Shown: piece by piece, positions 9,894-18,635 of the stretch | Numbering within the stretch: position 1 is the stretch's first letter | Layout: each line of letters starts with the position of its first letter | Origin: Chloroflexota bacterium | Lineage (GTDB): Bacteria; Chloroflexota; Anaerolineae; Anaerolineales; Villigracilaceae | DNA length: 64,000 bases | NCBI GenBank assembly: GCA_016213105.1 | Contig: JACRBN010000016.1 | Span: 248,001-312,000 of the forward strand | Reading direction: 5' to 3' | Translations under genes and position numbers: made by a program | The notes under the pieces: model-generated | Told to the model about the DNA's origin: nothing | Database searches by the model: none | What the model saw: only the letters and a program-made list of their open reading frames with translations

Positions 9894-12800
9894 ATGAGTC
9901 ACCCGCGTTCGGCCTTCCCCGTGTCTGTGGCGCTCCTCTATTGCATCATCGGAGGAGTATGGATCGTTTCCACAGATTACGCCGTTCATCTGCTCGTACA
10001 GGACCCGCAGGTGGCAAACGGCCTTCAAACAGCCAAGGGGTGGTTCTTTGTCATTGCCAGCGCGCTCGTCCTGTATTATGTGCTGCACAAGGAAACCCAA
10101 ACCCGCGAACACGCCGAACAGGAATACCGTAATATTTTCGAAAACAGCCCGGAGGGATTCTTTCAATCCACCCCGCAGGGCGTTTTTCGCAGTGTCAACC
10201 CATCCATGGCGCACATCTTCGGGTACGAATCCCCGCAGGAGATGATCGCTCTCATTAATGACCTCAGCATCCAGCTACATCCCAACCAGGAAAACCGTCG
10301 ACGGTTTGTGGAGGAGTTGCTCCAGCACGGTTCGGTAGAAAACTTCGAAGCCCAGAACCTGCGCAAGGATGGAAGCACGATCTGGACATTGACCAATGCC
10401 CGCGTGGTCAGGGGGATGGACGGGGAGATCCTGTACTACGAGGGTTTCCTCCAGGACATCACCCAACGTAAAAAAGCGGAACTGGCCCTGCTGGAAAGCG
10501 AGTGGAGCTTTCGCGGGCTGTACGACAACAATCCACTGATGCTCTTCAACATGGACCGCAATGGAGTCATCCTCGCGGTCAATCAAACCACCAGCCAGCG
10601 CCTGGGGTATTCGAGCGAGGAGCTGGTTGGCAGGCGCGCGATCGATTTCACGCACAGACACGACCGCAAAAGCGTCCTGCGCATCGCCATCGAATGCATC
10701 CAAAAATCGAATGAAATCCGCCAATTGGAGTTTCGCGTCATCACGCGGGCCAATGAAAGCTTGTGGGTGGAGGGCAGCGCGCGCGCCTTCATTGACGCGC
10801 GCGGCAAGATCAACATGTTCGTGGTTTGCGAAGACATCCAGGAAAGAAAATACGCCGAATCCGAGTTGATCATGGCGGAGGAGCGCTATCGCGCGCTGGT
10901 GGAACAATTACCCGTGGCCGTCTACAGGGAGGCCTACGGCGAGTTAAATCACCATCTCTACCTAAGCCCCCGCATCGAAACGATTTTGGGATATACCCAC
11001 GAAGAACTGATCCAGCAACCGGGCATCTGGCGGGAGGCCATCCACCCCGAAGACCGCCAGGCCATCGAACTGGAGAATCAGCGCACAGACGAAACCCTCG
11101 AACCGTACCAAATGGAGTATAGAGCCTTCAAAAAAGATGGAAGTCTCATCTGGCTGCGCGACCAGGCGGTGGTGATATTCGACGAGAACGAAAAACCGCA
11201 GTACTGGCAGGGCCTGTTGATGGATATCACAGCCCAGAAGAAAGCGCAGGAATTGCTTACAAAAAGCGAGGAATCCTATCGCGGGCTGTTCAATACGGTC
11301 GCCGATGCCATCTACATCCAGGATGTCAATGGCTTCTTCCTCGACGTGAACGAGGGCGCCGTCAAAATGTACGGATACAGCCGCGAGGAGTTGATCGGGA
11401 AATCTCCCTTGGATGTGTCTGCCCCGGGGAAAAACGATTTGGAGGAAGTCGGCAAAAAAATCGAGCTTGCCTTCAAGGGGGAGGCGCAGCAATTCGAATT
11501 TTGGGGACAAAGAAGGAACGGCGAAATCTTTCCCAAAAATGTACGGGTTGCCCGCGGAACCTACTTTGGGAAAAACGTGCTGATCGCCTTCGCCGAGGAT
11601 ATTACCGAGCGCAAAAAAGTGGAGGAGGCCCTGCGGTCCGCCGAGGCCCGCTACAGAAACCTGGTGGAGCACCTGCCCGCCGTGGTGTACATCGATTCCG
11701 CCGAGGATACATCCACGCTCTACGTCAGCCCGCAAATCCAGACTCTGACCGGGTACACGCCCGCTGAGTGGACGGCCGACGAAAACTTGTGGGTGAACTC
11801 CATTCATCCGGAGGACCGCGAGGCGGTCGTGCAGGCGGAACGTCACATGTATGAAACCCATGAACCCTTCGGCCGCGAGTATCGGCTCATCCGCCGCGAC
11901 GGGCAGGTCATCTGGGTGTACGATCAAACCGCCCCGCTTTACAGCACGGATGGAAAGCCGCTCTACTACCAGGGCGTTTTTCTGGACACGACCAAACAGC
12001 GCCAGGCTGAAGAAGCCATCCGCCAAAGCGAGGAACGCTTCAGCAAGGTGTTCGAATCCAGTTCCATCGCGATCTGCATCACCACCCTGGCAGAGGGCAG
12101 ATTCATCGACGCCAACCAGGCTTATTGGAATTTATTTGGCCTGACGCCCGAAAACGCCATCGGCCACACGGCCGTCGAATTGAACATCTGGAAAAATGAA
12201 AAAGGCAGGAGAAGGCTGGTTCGCCGCCTTCGGGAAAGTAAATCCCTGCGCGGCGTCGAGGGAAGTTTCACCACCTCCCGGGGCATCCGGCGCGACACGC
12301 TCATTTTCTACGAGTTGATCAACCTGGACGGGCAGGACTGCATCCTGTCCATGTTCCATGATATTACCGAGCAGAAAAAAGCCCAGGATGACCTGCGCCG
12401 CAAGGAAGCCATCCTGAATGCGATTGCCTTCGCCGCCGACCAATTCCTCAAGTCGCCATACTGGACCAGCGCCATTTCGGCCATCCTCGAAAAAATGGGA
12501 AACGCCGCCCAGGCCAGCCGCGTTTACATTTTCCAAAAATTGGATGACGAGTCTGCGCACAGTGTGGTCAGGCAGCGTTACGAATGGTGCGCGGCGGGAA
12601 TCACATCCTTCCAGGGCGATGTCTCCATGCAAGGATTCGACATGGTCGAGAATGGCCTGGGACGCTGGGTGGGTTTGATCGAAAGCGGCAGGCCGGTGTA
12701 TGGCGTCGTCAGGGATCTGCCGGATGGGGAAAAAACCGAATTCGTAAGGCAGGGCATCCTTTCCATCATTTGCATGCCCATCATGATTGGTCAGGATTGG

Positions 12801-15800
12801 TGGGGCTTCATTGGGCTGGATGATTGTGTCGCGGAGCGCGTGTGGAGCGAGAGCGAAAACGAAGCCCTGCATACGGCCGCCAGCATCATCAGCGCAGCCA
12901 TCCAAAGGGAGCAATCTGGCGAGGCGGAGAAAAAGCAGTTGAGTGAGTTGATCATGCTGCACGCCGTCGCGCTGGCCAGTTCCACTGCGGCCAACGCGGA
13001 CGAGTTGATCCAGCGCATCACCGCGATCATCCACGAGAACCTGAAAGCGGACAATTGCGGCATCCTGCTGGTCAGCAAAAATGGCAGGCTGATCGAGCCG
13101 CACCCCTCCTACATCGAGAGCGCCCATTCGGCATCGAATGAACCCATGCAGATCGAACAGGGCGTGGTGGGCAAGGTTGCCCTGACCGGCCAACCCGTGC
13201 GCCTGGACAACGTGAAACACATTTTCGAATACGTTGCGATCGCGCCGGATATCCAGTCCGAACTGTGCGTCCCGATCACCTCCGGGGGACAGGTGGTCGG
13301 CGTCATCAATATCGAAAGCAAAACCGCTTCAGCCTTCAGTGAAACAGACGAGCGGCTGATCAACACGGTCGCAGGCGGCTTGGGGACCGCCATCGACAAA
13401 TTCAAATTGTTCGATACCGAACGCCGCAGGGCGCGCGACGCCGAAAACCTGCTGGAAGCCACCGCCAGCCTGAACAGGTCCCTCGACCTCGCGGAGCTGT
13501 TCGAAGTCACCTTTGACATGCTGGCCAGGTTCACTCCGTTCGACAGCGCCTCCATCTTCATCCTGGATGGAGATTCTGTGAAAGTGGCGGCGACGAAGAA
13601 CCTGCCGCCCGGGCTGGCCGCCATTGGCAGCCTTTTTCCTCTCTCAGACAAATGGAGATGGATTTACACAAACCGCTGTCCCCTGATCCTCGAGGATGCG
13701 CAAAACGACGCCTCCTTCGATAAATGGGAAGGCTCCGAATACATTCACGGTTGGATTGGCCTGCCCCTGGTGGTCAAGGATCAGGTGATCGGATTCGTCC
13801 ACCTCGACAGCAGCACCCCCGGGGCCTTCACCGAGGAACAGTCCATCCTGCTCCAAACCTTCGTAAACCAGGCAGCCATTGCCATCGAGAACGCCCGTCT
13901 GTTCGAGGCCGAACAGCAGCGGCGGCACGAGGCCGAAACCCTGCGCGAGGTCGCCACCGCGGTAGCATCCACCCTTGATGAGGAAACCGCCATCCAAGTG
14001 ATCCTGGAGCAGCTTTCCAAGGTGGTGCCGTTCAAAAGCGCCTCGGTGCAAATTCTCGGGGATGGATACCTCGAAATCGTGGGCGGGGTAGGCTGGCCCG
14101 ACCCATCCGCGGTGAAGGGATTGCACTTCCCCGTGCCAGGCGACAATCCCAACACGGTCGTCATCCAGGAAAAACGACCCTACCTGCTCAAAAATGCGTC
14201 CTCCAACTTTGGACCCTTCCACCAGCCGCCGCACGCCCACATCCATTCCTGGCTCGGCGTCCCGCTCATCGTGCGCGACCACGTGATTGGCATGTTGGCC
14301 GTCGACCACTCGGAAAAGGATTTTTACACCGCGGAGCATGCCCACCTGGTCGAGACCTTCGCCATCCAGGCGGCGATTGCCATCGAGAACGCGCGCCTGT
14401 TCGCCGCCGAACAAAATCAGCGCCTCCGCGAAGCCTCGATGCTCGACCTGATGACCCTGGCCGCCTCCTCCCTCGATCTCGATGTGGTCAACCAAAACAT
14501 CCTCAGTCGCATCATCAAATTGATCCCCTGCGACTCCGGGACGATCCAGATCCTCAAGGAGGATCGCCTGCGCATTTCCGCCGCCATCGGTTTCGAGACC
14601 CGGGTGATCAAACCCGGCAACACCCTCCTGGTTGATGACTTTCCACTCAACGCCAGGATCATCACCAGCAAGCAGCCCATCCGTCTCGACAACGTAAAGA
14701 ACAACGACAACTACCGCTGGATCCCGGGCATCAGCAATATCTGTTCGTTCATGGGAATTCCCATCCTCTTCAAGGGCGAGATCATCGGCATTGTCACCCT
14801 CGACAGCAGCCTGGATGCCCGCTTCACAAAGGAAGACGAGGAACTGGGCCTGGCCATCGCGACCAACGCCGCCAATGCCATCGGGAACGCGCGCCTGTTC
14901 GAGCTGGAGCAGCAGCGCAGGCAGGAGGCCGAGAACATGCGCCTGGCCGCCTCGGCCATCACATCGACCCTGGATGCCCGCCAGGTGCTGGAAACCATCC
15001 TGATCGCCCTGCAGCAGGTGGTGCCCTATCACAGCGCGACGATGTTCCTGCTCGAAAATGAAACGGTGAAGATCGCCGCCACCCAGGGACTTTCCGATCC
15101 CGAAGCTGCGCTCCAGCGCGTCTTTCCGGCCGATAATCGGCTCTTCCTTGCCATGAACGAAAGCAATCAACCCATCATCCTGTACGATGCGCAGGTCGAC
15201 CCGCGCTTCGAAAAATGGATTGCCGAGGATGTGCGTGGCTGGATGGGAGTGCCGCTCATCACCCACGGGAGCATCGTCGGCTACATCACCCTCGACAGCG
15301 ACAAGACCGGCAATTTCGACGAGAACGCCGCCGAGCTGGCCCAGACCTTCGCCTCCCAGGCCGCCATCGCCATCGACAACGCCCGCCTGTACGAAGAAAC
15401 GCGCCGTCGTCTGAGCGAGCTGGAAGTCGTCAGCCGCGTTTCCTTCGCCCTGCGCTCCACACAGGATCCCAACCGCATGCTGCCGACCCTGATGAAGGAA
15501 ATCCTGAGAAGCATGGAAACGGATGCGGCCTCCATCTGGTTGTACAACCCCAGAACCTACATGCTCGACCGGGTGATTGCAAGCGGCTGGCAAAATGAAA
15601 TCGACATCAAATCCCTGCACCCGCACGAGTCCATCGTCGGGCACGTTTATCAGACCGGGGAAGTGCATCTGATCCAGGATTTCCCCAAGGATCCGTACAC
15701 GCATCCTGTGCTTGCCGACCAGAAAGGGGAAGGCTGGGGCGGCATTGCCGTGCCGATCCGCACCACGTCCCAGACCATCGGCGCTGTGATCGTGGCCGTG

Positions 15801-16991
15801 CCCCAGCCGCGCAAGGTGGAACATCACCAGGCGCAACTGCTGATCACCCTGGCGGAAATCGCGGGCAGCGCCATCCATCGCGCCCAGTTGTATGATCAAA
15901 GCGAGGAACAGGTCAGGCGCCTGACGGCCCTGCGCGACGTGGATACCGCCATCGCATCCAGCTTCGACCTGCACACGACGCTCAGCATCCTGTTGGACCA
16001 CACCCTGTCACAGCTCAACGTGGATGCCGCCACCATCCTGACCTACAACGCTGACATGCGCACCCTCAACCACATCGCCAGCCTGGGCTTCCGTCGATCC
16101 AGTTCCATCCAGGCTTCCATGCGCATCAACAATCGCCTGCTCAACCAGGCCCTGCTCGAACGCAGGGACATCTTCGTGGAAAATATTGCGGGCGAAATCA
16201 ATCACCACCGCAAGGAATTGGCGGTCGGGGAAAATTTCGTCAGTTATTTTGCCACCCCGTTGACCAGCAAGGGACACGTCAAAGGCCTGCTCGAAGTCTA
16301 CCTGCGCCAACCCTTCATGCCGCAGTCCAACTGGGTGGATTTCTTCCACACCATCGCCGGGCAGGCAGCCATTGCCATCGACAATTCGCAACTGTTCGAA
16401 AACCTCCAGCGCACCAACCAGGAACTGGCCCTGGCGTATGACACCACCCTCGAAGGCTGGGGCCGGGCGCTCGAATTGCGCGACAAGGAAACACAGGGTC
16501 ACACCCTGCGGGTCACCGAACTGACCGTGCGCCTGTCCCGCCGACTGGGCATCCCCGAAACGGCTCTCATCCACATCCGCCGCGGCGTGCTCCTGCACGA
16601 CATCGGCAAGATGGCCGTGCCCGACCATATCCTCAAAAAGACGGGACCGCTCACCCTGGACGAATGGGCCGAGATGCGCCAGCATCCAAAATATGCCTAC
16701 GACTTGCTCTATCCCATTCCATACCTGCGCCCGGCATTGGACATCCCCTATGCCCACCACGAGTTTTGGAACGGTGAGGGCTATCCGCGCGGGTTGAAGG
16801 GCGAGAACATCCCCGTGGCGGCGCGCATCTTTGCCGTGGTGGACGTTTACGACGCGCTGCTCTACGACCGTCCCTACCGCGAAGCCTGGCCGAAGGATAA
16901 GGTATCCAAGTACCTGCTGGCCGAATCAGGCACCCACTTCGACCCTGCCATCGTAAGCGAGTTCCTTAGAATGCTCGAAGAGGATGAATAG
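9894..16991 (+). CDS. Giant membrane-anchored PAS6-GAF8-HD-GYP signalling protein
   Basis: A 2365-residue protein. Two transmembrane helices lie at about 9-28 and 48-66. Six PAS domains follow, each about 125 residues, beginning near 80, 197, 322, 453, 577 and 707; most end in the PAC-type DITxRKKAE/DITEQKKAQ linker. Eight GAF domains begin near 835, 1020, 1185, 1350, 1512, 1682, 1845 and 2015, many ending in AIAIENARLFE. An HD-GYP domain (about 2186-2365) has LLHDIGKMAVPD and HHEFWNGEGYPRG, so the metal-binding HD and GYP motifs are intact. Such domains hydrolyse cyclic di-GMP to GMP. No histidine kinase or GGDEF is present. It faces the polysaccharide operon divergently, so control of exopolysaccharide by c-di-GMP turnover is a reasonable inference. 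No Shine-Dalgarno is obvious. Confidence 0.92.
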   Translation: MSHPRSAFPVSVALLYCIIGGVWIVSTDYAVHLLVQDPQVANGLQTAKGWFFVIASALVLYYVLHKETQTREHAEQEYRNIFENSPEGFFQSTPQGVFRSVNPSMAHIFGYESPQEMIALINDLSIQLHPNQENRRRFVEELLQHGSVENFEAQNLRKDGSTIWTLTNARVVRGMDGEILYYEGFLQDITQRKKAELALLESEWSFRGLYDNNPLMLFNMDRNGVILAVNQTTSQRLGYSSEELVGRRAIDFTHRHDRKSVLRIAIECIQKSNEIRQLEFRVITRANESLWVEGSARAFIDARGKINMFVVCEDIQERKYAESELIMAEERYRALVEQLPVAVYREAYGELNHHLYLSPRIETILGYTHEELIQQPGIWREAIHPEDRQAIELENQRTDETLEPYQMEYRAFKKDGSLIWLRDQAVVIFDENEKPQYWQGLLMDITAQKKAQELLTKSEESYRGLFNTVADAIYIQDVNGFFLDVNEGAVKMYGYSREELIGKSPLDVSAPGKNDLEEVGKKIELAFKGEAQQFEFWGQRRNGEIFPKNVRVARGTYFGKNVLIAFAEDITERKKVEEALRSAEARYRNLVEHLPAVVYIDSAEDTSTLYVSPQIQTLTGYTPAEWTADENLWVNSIHPEDREAVVQAERHMYETHEPFGREYRLIRRDGQVIWVYDQTAPLYSTDGKPLYYQGVFLDTTKQRQAEEAIRQSEERFSKVFESSSIAICITTLAEGRFIDANQAYWNLFGLTPENAIGHTAVELNIWKNEKGRRRLVRRLRESKSLRGVEGSFTTSRGIRRDTLIFYELINLDGQDCILSMFHDITEQKKAQDDLRRKEAILNAIAFAADQFLKSPYWTSAISAILEKMGNAAQASRVYIFQKLDDESAHSVVRQRYEWCAAGITSFQGDVSMQGFDMVENGLGRWVGLIESGRPVYGVVRDLPDGEKTEFVRQGILSIICMPIMIGQDWWGFIGLDDCVAERVWSESENEALHTAASIISAAIQREQSGEAEKKQLSELIMLHAVALASSTAANADELIQRITAIIHENLKADNCGILLVSKNGRLIEPHPSYIESAHSASNEPMQIEQGVVGKVALTGQPVRLDNVKHIFEYVAIAPDIQSELCVPITSGGQVVGVINIESKTASAFSETDERLINTVAGGLGTAIDKFKLFDTERRRARDAENLLEATASLNRSLDLAELFEVTFDMLARFTPFDSASIFILDGDSVKVAATKNLPPGLAAIGSLFPLSDKWRWIYTNRCPLILEDAQNDASFDKWEGSEYIHGWIGLPLVVKDQVIGFVHLDSSTPGAFTEEQSILLQTFVNQAAIAIENARLFEAEQQRRHEAETLREVATAVASTLDEETAIQVILEQLSKVVPFKSASVQILGDGYLEIVGGVGWPDPSAVKGLHFPVPGDNPNTVVIQEKRPYLLKNASSNFGPFHQPPHAHIHSWLGVPLIVRDHVIGMLAVDHSEKDFYTAEHAHLVETFAIQAAIAIENARLFAAEQNQRLREASMLDLMTLAASSLDLDVVNQNILSRIIKLIPCDSGTIQILKEDRLRISAAIGFETRVIKPGNTLLVDDFPLNARIITSKQPIRLDNVKNNDNYRWIPGISNICSFMGIPILFKGEIIGIVTLDSSLDARFTKEDEELGLAIATNAANAIGNARLFELEQQRRQEAENMRLAASAITSTLDARQVLETILIALQQVVPYHSATMFLLENETVKIAATQGLSDPEAALQRVFPADNRLFLAMNESNQPIILYDAQVDPRFEKWIAEDVRGWMGVPLITHGSIVGYITLDSDKTGNFDENAAELAQTFASQAAIAIDNARLYEETRRRLSELEVVSRVSFALRSTQDPNRMLPTLMKEILRSMETDAASIWLYNPRTYMLDRVIASGWQNEIDIKSLHPHESIVGHVYQTGEVHLIQDFPKDPYTHPVLADQKGEGWGGIAVPIRTTSQTIGAVIVAVPQPRKVEHHQAQLLITLAEIAGSAIHRAQLYDQSEEQVRRLTALRDVDTAIASSFDLHTTLSILLDHTLSQLNVDAATILTYNADMRTLNHIASLGFRRSSSIQASMRINNRLLNQALLERRDIFVENIAGEINHHRKELAVGENFVSYFATPLTSKGHVKGLLEVYLRQPFMPQSNWVDFFHTIAGQAAIAIDNSQLFENLQRTNQELALAYDTTLEGWGRALELRDKETQGHTLRVTELTVRLSRRLGIPETALIHIRRGVLLHDIGKMAVPDHILKKTGPLTLDEWAEMRQHPKYAYDLLYPIPYLRPALDIPYAHHEFWNGEGYPRGLKGENIPVAARIFAVVDVYDALLYDRPYREAWPKDKVSKYLLAESGTHFDPAIVSEFLRMLEEDE

Positions 16992-18320: not shown

Positions 18321-18351
18321 GGGAACCTCCCGACAAAAAATGGCAAACAAA

Positions 18352-18380
18352 AACGCGCCCGCGATGGTGAAGGGCGCGTT
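18352..18380 (-). terminator. Attenuator terminator in the tyrS leader
   Basis: On the minus strand AACGCGCCC (18380-18372), an 11-base loop and GGGCGCGTT (18360-18352) form a 9-bp GC-rich stem followed by TTTTGTTTG. It stands 31 bases before the tyrS start codon. The loop bases UUCACC (18371-18366) can instead pair with GGUGGA (18392-18387), with CGC/GCG extending the pairing across a bulge; that alternative fold traps the 5' arm of the terminator and acts as a candidate antiterminator. Confidence 0.82.
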
Positions 18381-18401
18381 CAAAACTCCACCGCAGACAG
18401 G

Positions 18402-18449
18402 CTAGGGGTGGGAATAATAGTAATAGGTTTCGCGCTTCAATTCGAACAT
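18402..18449 (-). CDS. tyrS leader peptide with four consecutive Tyr codons
   Basis: The 15-codon ORF reads MFELKRETYYYYSHP, with the Tyr codons TAT TAC TAT TAT at codons 9-12, then a TAG stop. The ATG lies 7 bases after the TATAAT element, so the transcript probably starts at or next to this AUG (leaderless). A ribosome stalled on the Tyr codons would leave 18395-18387 free to form the antiterminator; a ribosome reaching the stop codon would cover it and let the terminator form. This is the geometry of classical ribosome-mediated attenuation. Too short for routine gene callers. Confidence 0.8.
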   Translation of the reverse strand: MFELKRETYYYYSHP

Positions 18450-18455
18450 GCGCCT

Positions 18456-18486
18456 ATTATAACGCAAGAATTTTTTCGGAAGGCAA
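18456..18486 (-). promoter_or_regulatory. Promoter of the tyrS leader transcript
   Basis: Minus-strand TATAAT at 18461-18456 and a -35-like TTGCCT at 18486-18481, separated by 19 bases. The predicted start point coincides with the A of the leader-peptide ATG at 18449. Confidence 0.65.
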
Positions 18487-18563: not shown

Positions 18564-18569
18564 TATAAT
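18564..18569 (+). promoter_or_regulatory. -10 element for the small ORF and C39-like protease
   Basis: TATAAT ends 7 bases before the ATG at 18576, so this transcript too may be leaderless. The -35 is poor (TTGCGC at 18538 is 20 bases away). Confidence 0.55.
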
Positions 18570-18575
18570 ATTTCC

Positions 18576-18635
18576 ATGAGCCGCGTAAACAAGCCGTCTG
18601 ACAGAACGTCCAAATACCAAGGTGCGCTGAAATGA
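18576..18635 (+). CDS. 19-codon ORF coupled to the C39-like protease gene
   Basis: The ORF encodes MSRVNKPSDRTSKYQGALK and ends at a TGA that overlaps the next ATG (ATGA at 18632-18635). Its ATG is at the predicted transcription start. No codon run suggests attenuation. It may simply bring ribosomes to the downstream gene, which has no Shine-Dalgarno of its own. Evidence is positional only. Confidence 0.45.
   Translation: MSRVNKPSDRTSKYQGALK

Follow-up and report, generated by a model that had tools for sequence, protein, structure and literature searches.

A putative tyrosine-specific leader-peptide attenuator upstream of tyrS in a Chloroflexota bacterium and its occurrence among relatives

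The tyrS locus and its upstream region

The window, i.e. the whole 64-kb stretch of DNA that was analysed, belongs to a Chloroflexota genome of 5.39 Mb and carries on its minus strand a gene for tyrosyl-tRNA synthetase (tyrS). The closest named match of this TyrRS comes from a groundwater Chloroflexi MAG (95% identity), followed by Chloroflexi, Anaerolineaceae, Anaerolinea and Anaerolineales MAGs. Reading the minus strand towards tyrS, a TATAAT box is followed after 6 nt by the ATG of a short leader ORF (18449), which encodes MFELKRETYYYYSHP and ends with a TAG stop (18404-18402); 20 nt further on come a terminator, its U-tract, a Shine-Dalgarno site and the tyrS ATG (Table 1). The sequence-only reading had described a tyrS leader with TAT TAC TAT TAT in a row, and these four codons can indeed be read directly at 18425-18414 of the minus strand. 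The downstream gene belongs to the metabolism of the same amino acid that the Tyr run of the leader encodes (PF00579). The gap between the leader stop and the tyrS start amounts to 81 nt. TAYTAYTAYTAY occurs a single time on both strands of the window and in none of 100 window shuffles, and only one of the 14 terminator-like sites in the window, the tyrS site, is preceded by an ORF tail with at least three Tyr. Another candidate for an amino-acid leader in the window, a terminator with at least three His in a nearby frame, was rejected, the frame looking like a chance reading. On the plus strand, positions 9894-16991 hold an ORF of 2365 aa, which by eye looks like a multi-PAS, multi-GAF protein with a terminal HD-type domain.

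Table 1. Features of the tyrS leader region in window coordinates
Feature	Position	Strand	Basis or remark
-10 box TATAAT	18456..18461	-	sequence; 6 nt 5' of leader ATG; predicted +1 on the ATG
Leader peptide ORF, MFELKRETYYYYSHP and stop	18402..18449	-	sequence; relatives carry Tyr-rich ORFs in the corresponding position
Four Tyr codons (control codons), TAT TAC TAT TAT	18414..18425	-	sequence
Segment 1, CCACC, putative protector stem	18407..18411	-	can pair with 18392-18388; weakly supported across relatives
Segment 2, antiterminator 5' arm GTCTGCGGTGG	18388..18398	-	pairing energy, shuffle test, alignment
Intrinsic terminator hairpin GAACGCGCCC...GGGCGCGTTT	18351..18381	-	sequence, predicted folding, relatives
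Segment 3, antiterminator 3' arm CCATCGCGGGC	18357..18367	-	overlaps terminator loop and 3' arm
U-rich tract TTTTTGTTT	18345..18353	-	sequence
Shine-Dalgarno GGAGG of tyrS	18330-18326	-	sequence
tyrS, tyrosyl-tRNA synthetase, 403 aa	17109..18320	-	PF00579 match 3.1e-70; relatives

The standard distance between a -10 box and the transcription start would place +1 on the A of the leader ATG. Because the TATAAT lies exactly 6 nt before this ATG, which puts +1 on its A, the leader is probably read from a leaderless mRNA. The -35 box is poor, and a simple consensus scan listed no promoter at the leader. The combination TATAAT-N5-8-ATG is found three times in the window compared to 0.22 expected. 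Another TATAAT-N6-ATG precedes the short ORF MSRVNKPSDRTSKYQGALK at 18564-18635 on the plus strand, the stop of which overlaps the start of a divergent gene at 18632.

The terminator consists of a GC-rich stem (18381-18372 paired with 18360-18351) with an 11-nt loop, and 30 nt separate the stem from the tyrS ATG, close to the 31 bases given earlier for a GC-rich terminator at this place. It was not listed by a simple consensus scan, which allows loops of up to 8 nt. The best antiterminator is an 11-bp helix between 18398-18388 and 18367-18357, with a computed hairpin energy of -16.7 kcal/mol, nearly equal to the -16.9 kcal/mol computed for the terminator, and the two hairpins are mutually exclusive. 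The sequence-only reading had suggested another rival pairing; this pairing exists and even extends to 7 bp (18392-18386 with 18372-18366), but with -6.7 versus -16.7 kcal/mol it falls behind the 11-bp helix as the best antiterminator. By energy it is kept as a secondary pairing only, while the alignment of relatives is compatible with both registers. Folded as a whole, the leader shows no unusual stability (z -0.85), and this z-score is uninformative.

Leaders and switches in related genomes

Altogether 294 tyrS upstream stretches were gathered from family, class, phylum and order searches as well as from a species-level genome collection. The sample covers a selection of the genomes with a match, e.g. 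40 of the 134 family genomes with a tyrS match were fetched, besides those among 80 named loci. After removal of stretches shorter than 130 nt and of duplicates sharing the same 200-nt end, 275 distinct upstreams remained. We applied a leader definition that is blind to tyrosine (a -10 box allowing one mismatch, a gap of 5-8 nt and an ORF of 5-45 codons starting with ATG), which matched 96 of the 275 upstreams with 103 ORFs. In the leaders of these 96 upstreams Tyr makes up 17.5% of the residues. Runs of YY and YYY are seen in 77 and 53 of the 96, respectively; of the 12 amino acids checked for runs, Ser ranks next with 7 and 1. The TATAAT is exact in 85 of the 103 ORFs, and the spacing to the ATG is 6 nt in 76. 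Where an exact TATAAT goes together with a Tyr-rich ORF, as in 84 upstreams, the best -35 box is situated at 17 nt in 45 cases, and 42 of these 84 -35 boxes show at least four matches to TTGACA, compared with approximately 19% of shuffles.

In a second count, Tyr was scored in the last 14 codons of ORFs ending near a terminator. A terminator was present in 33 of the 38 upstreams of the family set and at least two Tyr in the tail in 32; the corresponding numbers were 70 and 68 for the 78 upstreams of the named set, 20 and 17 for 38 from the order's other families, 13 and 6 for 65 from the class's other orders, and 6 and 4 for 56 from the phylum's other classes. With Leu as control in the same tails, at least two residues were counted in 13/33 (family), 44/70 (named) and 8/20 (order's other families), and at least three in 31/70 of the named set, compared with 50/70 for Tyr. 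Since Leu as a common residue is also frequent in the tails, this count is weaker evidence than the one based on the -10 box.

The conservation of Tyr-rich leaders in related Anaerolineae, proposed earlier as a check, was found in the genera of the window's family and in other families of its order: 18 of 22 placeable genera of the former have a terminator with a Tyr-rich tail upstream of tyrS, as do 7 of 13 of the latter. Together with the counts for class and phylum, these numbers indicate that the putative Tyr attenuator is common within the family and the order and has a patchy distribution outside them. No attenuator was detected in 39 of the 159 rows of a TyrRS tree calculated with FastTree, including two in the window's own clade (L035, L071).

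The switch itself was evaluated in 124 upstreams with a terminator and a Tyr tail, many of which are close relatives, so that all following counts ignore kinship. A spacer of 17-22 nt separates the terminator from the stop codon in 100 of the 124, and 3 or 4 codons lie between the last Tyr and the stop in 107. The spacer pairs with the terminator loop and arms better than shuffled spacers do at p<=0.05 in 76/124 and at p<=0.01 in 46, with a median of 0.025, and the antiterminator persists while the sequences of its arms differ among genera. The protector stem, in which segment 1 pairs with segment 2, is weak in the same comparison (p<=0.05 in 45/124, median 0.2).

An alignment of close relatives comprised 42 of 49 candidate rows, with three near-copies (L079, L080, L081) and four more divergent rows (L085, L089, L093, L094) left out. 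Compensatory changes in both stems had been named earlier as a further check: they occur in the antiterminator at one pair, where 6 rows have both partners changed, and are absent from the terminator, which lacks covariation because it is nearly invariant in close relatives. The 11-bp antiterminator is paired in 94.9% of cells, and as many double-change cells were reached in 0 of 500 shuffles, but as many double-change pairs in 453 of 500. The covariation of the antiterminator must thus be regarded as thin. In the earlier register 89.3% of cells are paired and 11 double-change cells fall into one pair, which can be explained by the repetitive nature of the arms; as this register is also well paired with its 11 double-change cells, the alignment alone fits both registers. 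A lack of conserved Tyr codons or stems in close relatives, which would have spoken against the attenuator, was looked for, and the idea survived.

Some upstreams show leaders of another style, in which YSY, YLY or similar precedes a GGGGC...GCCCC hairpin that still lies in the coding part. This style was seen in 10 upstreams, most with a terminator farther downstream; nine come from the class's other orders (L118, L125, L127, L136, L206, L212, L213, L215, L216) and one from the same order (L344). Outside the class, three upstreams from two families (L227, L230, L235) carry YIY or YVY leaders, e.g. MDFLSTRGFKYVYRRRAQGPGVEA, before a tyrS terminator. Because their antiterminators do not outperform shuffles (p 0.81, 0.385 and 0.7), these leaders are taken as a lead only.

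A putative long-gene form of the leader

Unexpectedly, in 40 of the 294 stretches, with a few genomes counted twice, a gene for a protein of approximately 165 residues is found upstream of tyrS. By eye the protein has two hydrophobic stretches, and it gives a sub-threshold Pfam match to bPH_6 (E 0.0094). Many copies of this putative membrane-protein gene carry the Tyr codons at their very end (…MVYYARA or …GRYYYSRP before the stop) and are followed by a similar switch. The long-gene form stands directly 5' of tyrS at L034, L036, L038, L073, L084, L088, L100, L143-L145, L264, L271 and others. Some of its antiterminators are perfect, and others are no better than shuffles, e.g. in L088, L100, L103, L162, L171 and L332. 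A TATAAT is situated 6-9 nt before the start codon in 32 of 43 membrane-protein genes, as a raw count. The gene is present in 21 of the 61 family genomes searched; it was not found in the genome of the window.

The tail of the protein varies with its neighbourhood. Among 42 distinct copies, YY lies within the last 8 residues in all 28 that adjoin an attenuator and in one of the 14 others, the lone exception being L149, which has no recognisable terminator. These 14 include six copies with a separate mini-leader downstream and two on a different contig from tyrS, and these eight are all devoid of YY and mostly end with a single Tyr (…IYSR). Two assignments should be mentioned: L101 (identical in sequence with L263), with a single Tyr and a terminator farther off, was classed as lacking an adjacent attenuator, and L053, with YY 8-9 residues before the end and no terminator, as lacking a YY tail. 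A Fisher test on tail versus attenuator gives 5e-10 and ignores kinship, whereas a tree-based test yields four independent pairs on supported branches, three for, none against and one tie (p 0.25). The direction is thus consistent with an association between YY tail and attenuator, at p 0.25 once kinship is corrected for.

On the TyrRS tree the mini-leader and long-gene forms interleave, and well-supported branches force at least nine and at least eight changes, respectively. The window's own clade of eight rows comprises four long-gene forms, two mini-leaders and two without a detected attenuator. Because of this interleaving, which includes the window's clade, we think that the two forms may convert into each other. 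Taking everything together, we give somewhat better than even odds to a joint reading, in which Tyr attenuation of tyrS would be widespread in Anaerolineae in interchangeable minigene and long-gene forms. The minigenes, autonomous and leaderless, would be remnants (start plus tail) of the gene for the PH-like membrane protein, while in the long form an ordinary protein-coding gene would act as the leader peptide, its tail having extra Tyr codons when it adjoins the attenuator.

Full-length upstream proteins whose C-terminal codons pause the ribosome and thereby control the next gene are known from SecM-SecA and MifM-YidC2, which sense secretion or insertion through nascent-chain arrest. The long-gene form resembles them in having a full-length sensor and differs in using Tyr codons and a transcription terminator as output.

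Proposed mechanism, alternatives and known systems

The anatomy of the locus, its conservation, the exclusive hairpins of near-equal predicted energy and the spacing of codons, stop and terminator are the observations from which a model can be drawn. The front edge of a ribosome extends 15-16 nt past the P-site codon's first base. With this value, a ribosome holding the first to the fourth Tyr codon in its A site would reach approximately 18412 to 18403, and at the stop codon approximately 18391. Transcription would start at or beside the leader ATG, and the ribosome would load on the leaderless end, as the spacing between -10 box and ATG suggests. When Tyr-tRNA(Tyr) is scarce, the ribosome would stall on the Tyr run with its front edge short of segment 2, and the free segment 2 could pair with segment 3, taking up the loop and 3' arm of the terminator. 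With this antiterminator formed, RNA polymerase would continue into tyrS. With ample Tyr, the ribosome at the stop would cover most of segment 2, or its release would allow segment 1 to pair with segment 2; in both situations segment 2 would be blocked, the terminator would form and transcription would stop 30 nt 5' of tyrS. Start site, stalling and the direction of the response, with Tyr limitation leading to read-through, are what we infer. We put the probability at about 0.88 that a ribosome-mediated transcription attenuator couples tyrS expression to Tyr-tRNA charging; the cell would then probably make more tyrosyl-tRNA synthetase when charged tyrosine is short.

Direct sensing of tyrosine or tRNA by a trans-acting factor or an aptamer, T-box-like or riboswitch, with the leader peptide being secondary, has to be considered as well, given that T-boxes do exist in these genomes. 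RF00230 matches upstream of pheST in the window's own genome (L256) and at 5 of 7 other pheS loci scanned (6/8 in total; L241, L243, L246, L250, L251), and a T-box core motif is found in 15 of 17 pheS loci. At tyrS the picture is different: neither the window nor 52 other tyrS loci (20 + 12 + 20, the last 20 being leader-bearing loci from the family and order) gave a match to RF00230 in Rfam at gathering score, so that a T-box was rejected for tyrS at these loci. No other cis-regulatory Rfam match was obtained in the window or at the 52 loci, the only further hits being one tRNA elsewhere in the window and one among the loci. Moreover, the leader is about 100 nt long, and its conserved parts are the coding part (Tyr) and the pairing, with no core beyond the switch. 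Direct sensing appears very improbable on these grounds. In the same genome, no obvious Tyr leader was seen by eye in the inspected stretches at the tyrA-like loci, nor in the 300 nt inspected at the TrpRS gene.

It is similarly improbable that the leader acts on tyrS through reinitiation or translational coupling and not through transcription termination. Leader peptides near genes have been proposed to enhance translation (PMC4833913); in our case, however, the 81 nt between the leader stop and the tyrS start, the own Shine-Dalgarno site of tyrS and the terminator with U-tract lying between leader and gene all speak against it. The least probable alternative, a terminator that only ends upstream transcription or acts constitutively next to a Tyr-rich ORF that is a chance reading of spacer DNA, may draw on the strength of the terminator and on the 39 tree relatives without a detected leader, but it is hardly compatible with the Tyr enrichment and fixed spacing among species with quite different leaders or with the failure of window shuffles to produce TAYTAYTAYTAY. 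The classical ribosome-mediated attenuation claimed in the sequence-only reading is thus supported by the conservation, the persisting antiterminators and the missing tyrS T-box, with its mechanism kept at the level of the model above. Judged from sequence comparison, the window element is a real, conserved and Tyr-specific attenuator of a known mechanistic kind.

By design, it can be likened to the pheST attenuator (pheM leader) of Escherichia coli and relatives, in which a cognate-rich leader peptide with terminator and antiterminator controls an aminoacyl-tRNA synthetase; it differs in Tyr and tyrS, in the leaderless start and in belonging to Chloroflexota. PMC1262725 names pheST as an attenuator of this kind, describes classical attenuators before the single synthetase genes trpS and leuS of Streptomyces, and places tyrosine genes of other bacteria under T-boxes. 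The Streptomyces attenuators share with ours the control of one synthetase gene and differ in amino acid, gene and phylum. In Firmicutes, a T-box senses uncharged tRNA directly and links antitermination of tyrS transcription to the Tyr-tRNA status; a link of antitermination to the Tyr-tRNA status is proposed here as well, whereas an RF00230 match is lacking. The Bacillus subtilis tyrS T-box is cited in PMC2494555, which also gives T-boxes in two Dehalococcoides genomes, one for ileS and others for two trp genes. Bacillus hisS paralogues have a His leader peptide where relatives have a T-box, and before this case no leader-peptide systems had been known outside Proteobacteria and Actinobacteria, according to PMC2965389. 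The parallel to our case is a leader peptide in the place that a T-box takes at such genes in relatives; the difference is that one genome here has both a T-box and a leader peptide, on different synthetase operons. The absence of a Shine-Dalgarno site for the leader is shared with the attenuator of Corynebacterium ilvBNC, a biosynthetic operon for branched-chain amino acids, for which RBS-less leader peptide formation is named in the reference list of PMC10272879.

An excerpt of PMC11109978, with 8 uORF candidates in 50 genomes, mentions neither tyrS nor Anaerolinea. Among the matches listed in open-access literature, no report of a Tyr leader at tyrS or of leader-peptide attenuation in Chloroflexota was found, in line with the earlier remark that no described case was known from this phylum. 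A survey of attenuation in amino-acid and synthetase operons by Lopatovskaya and colleagues from 2010, cited in this literature, might mention such a case. As far as searched, gene, amino acid and phylum are new for classical attenuation.

If true, the finding would extend classical attenuation to a further phylum, amino acid and gene, and within one genome the T-box (pheST) and the leader-peptide attenuator (tyrS) would divide the control of synthetases between them. Furthermore, the long-gene form offers a testable route for the origin or loss of leader peptides, on which the tail of a gene would gain control codons and the gene body could be lost while start and tail persist.
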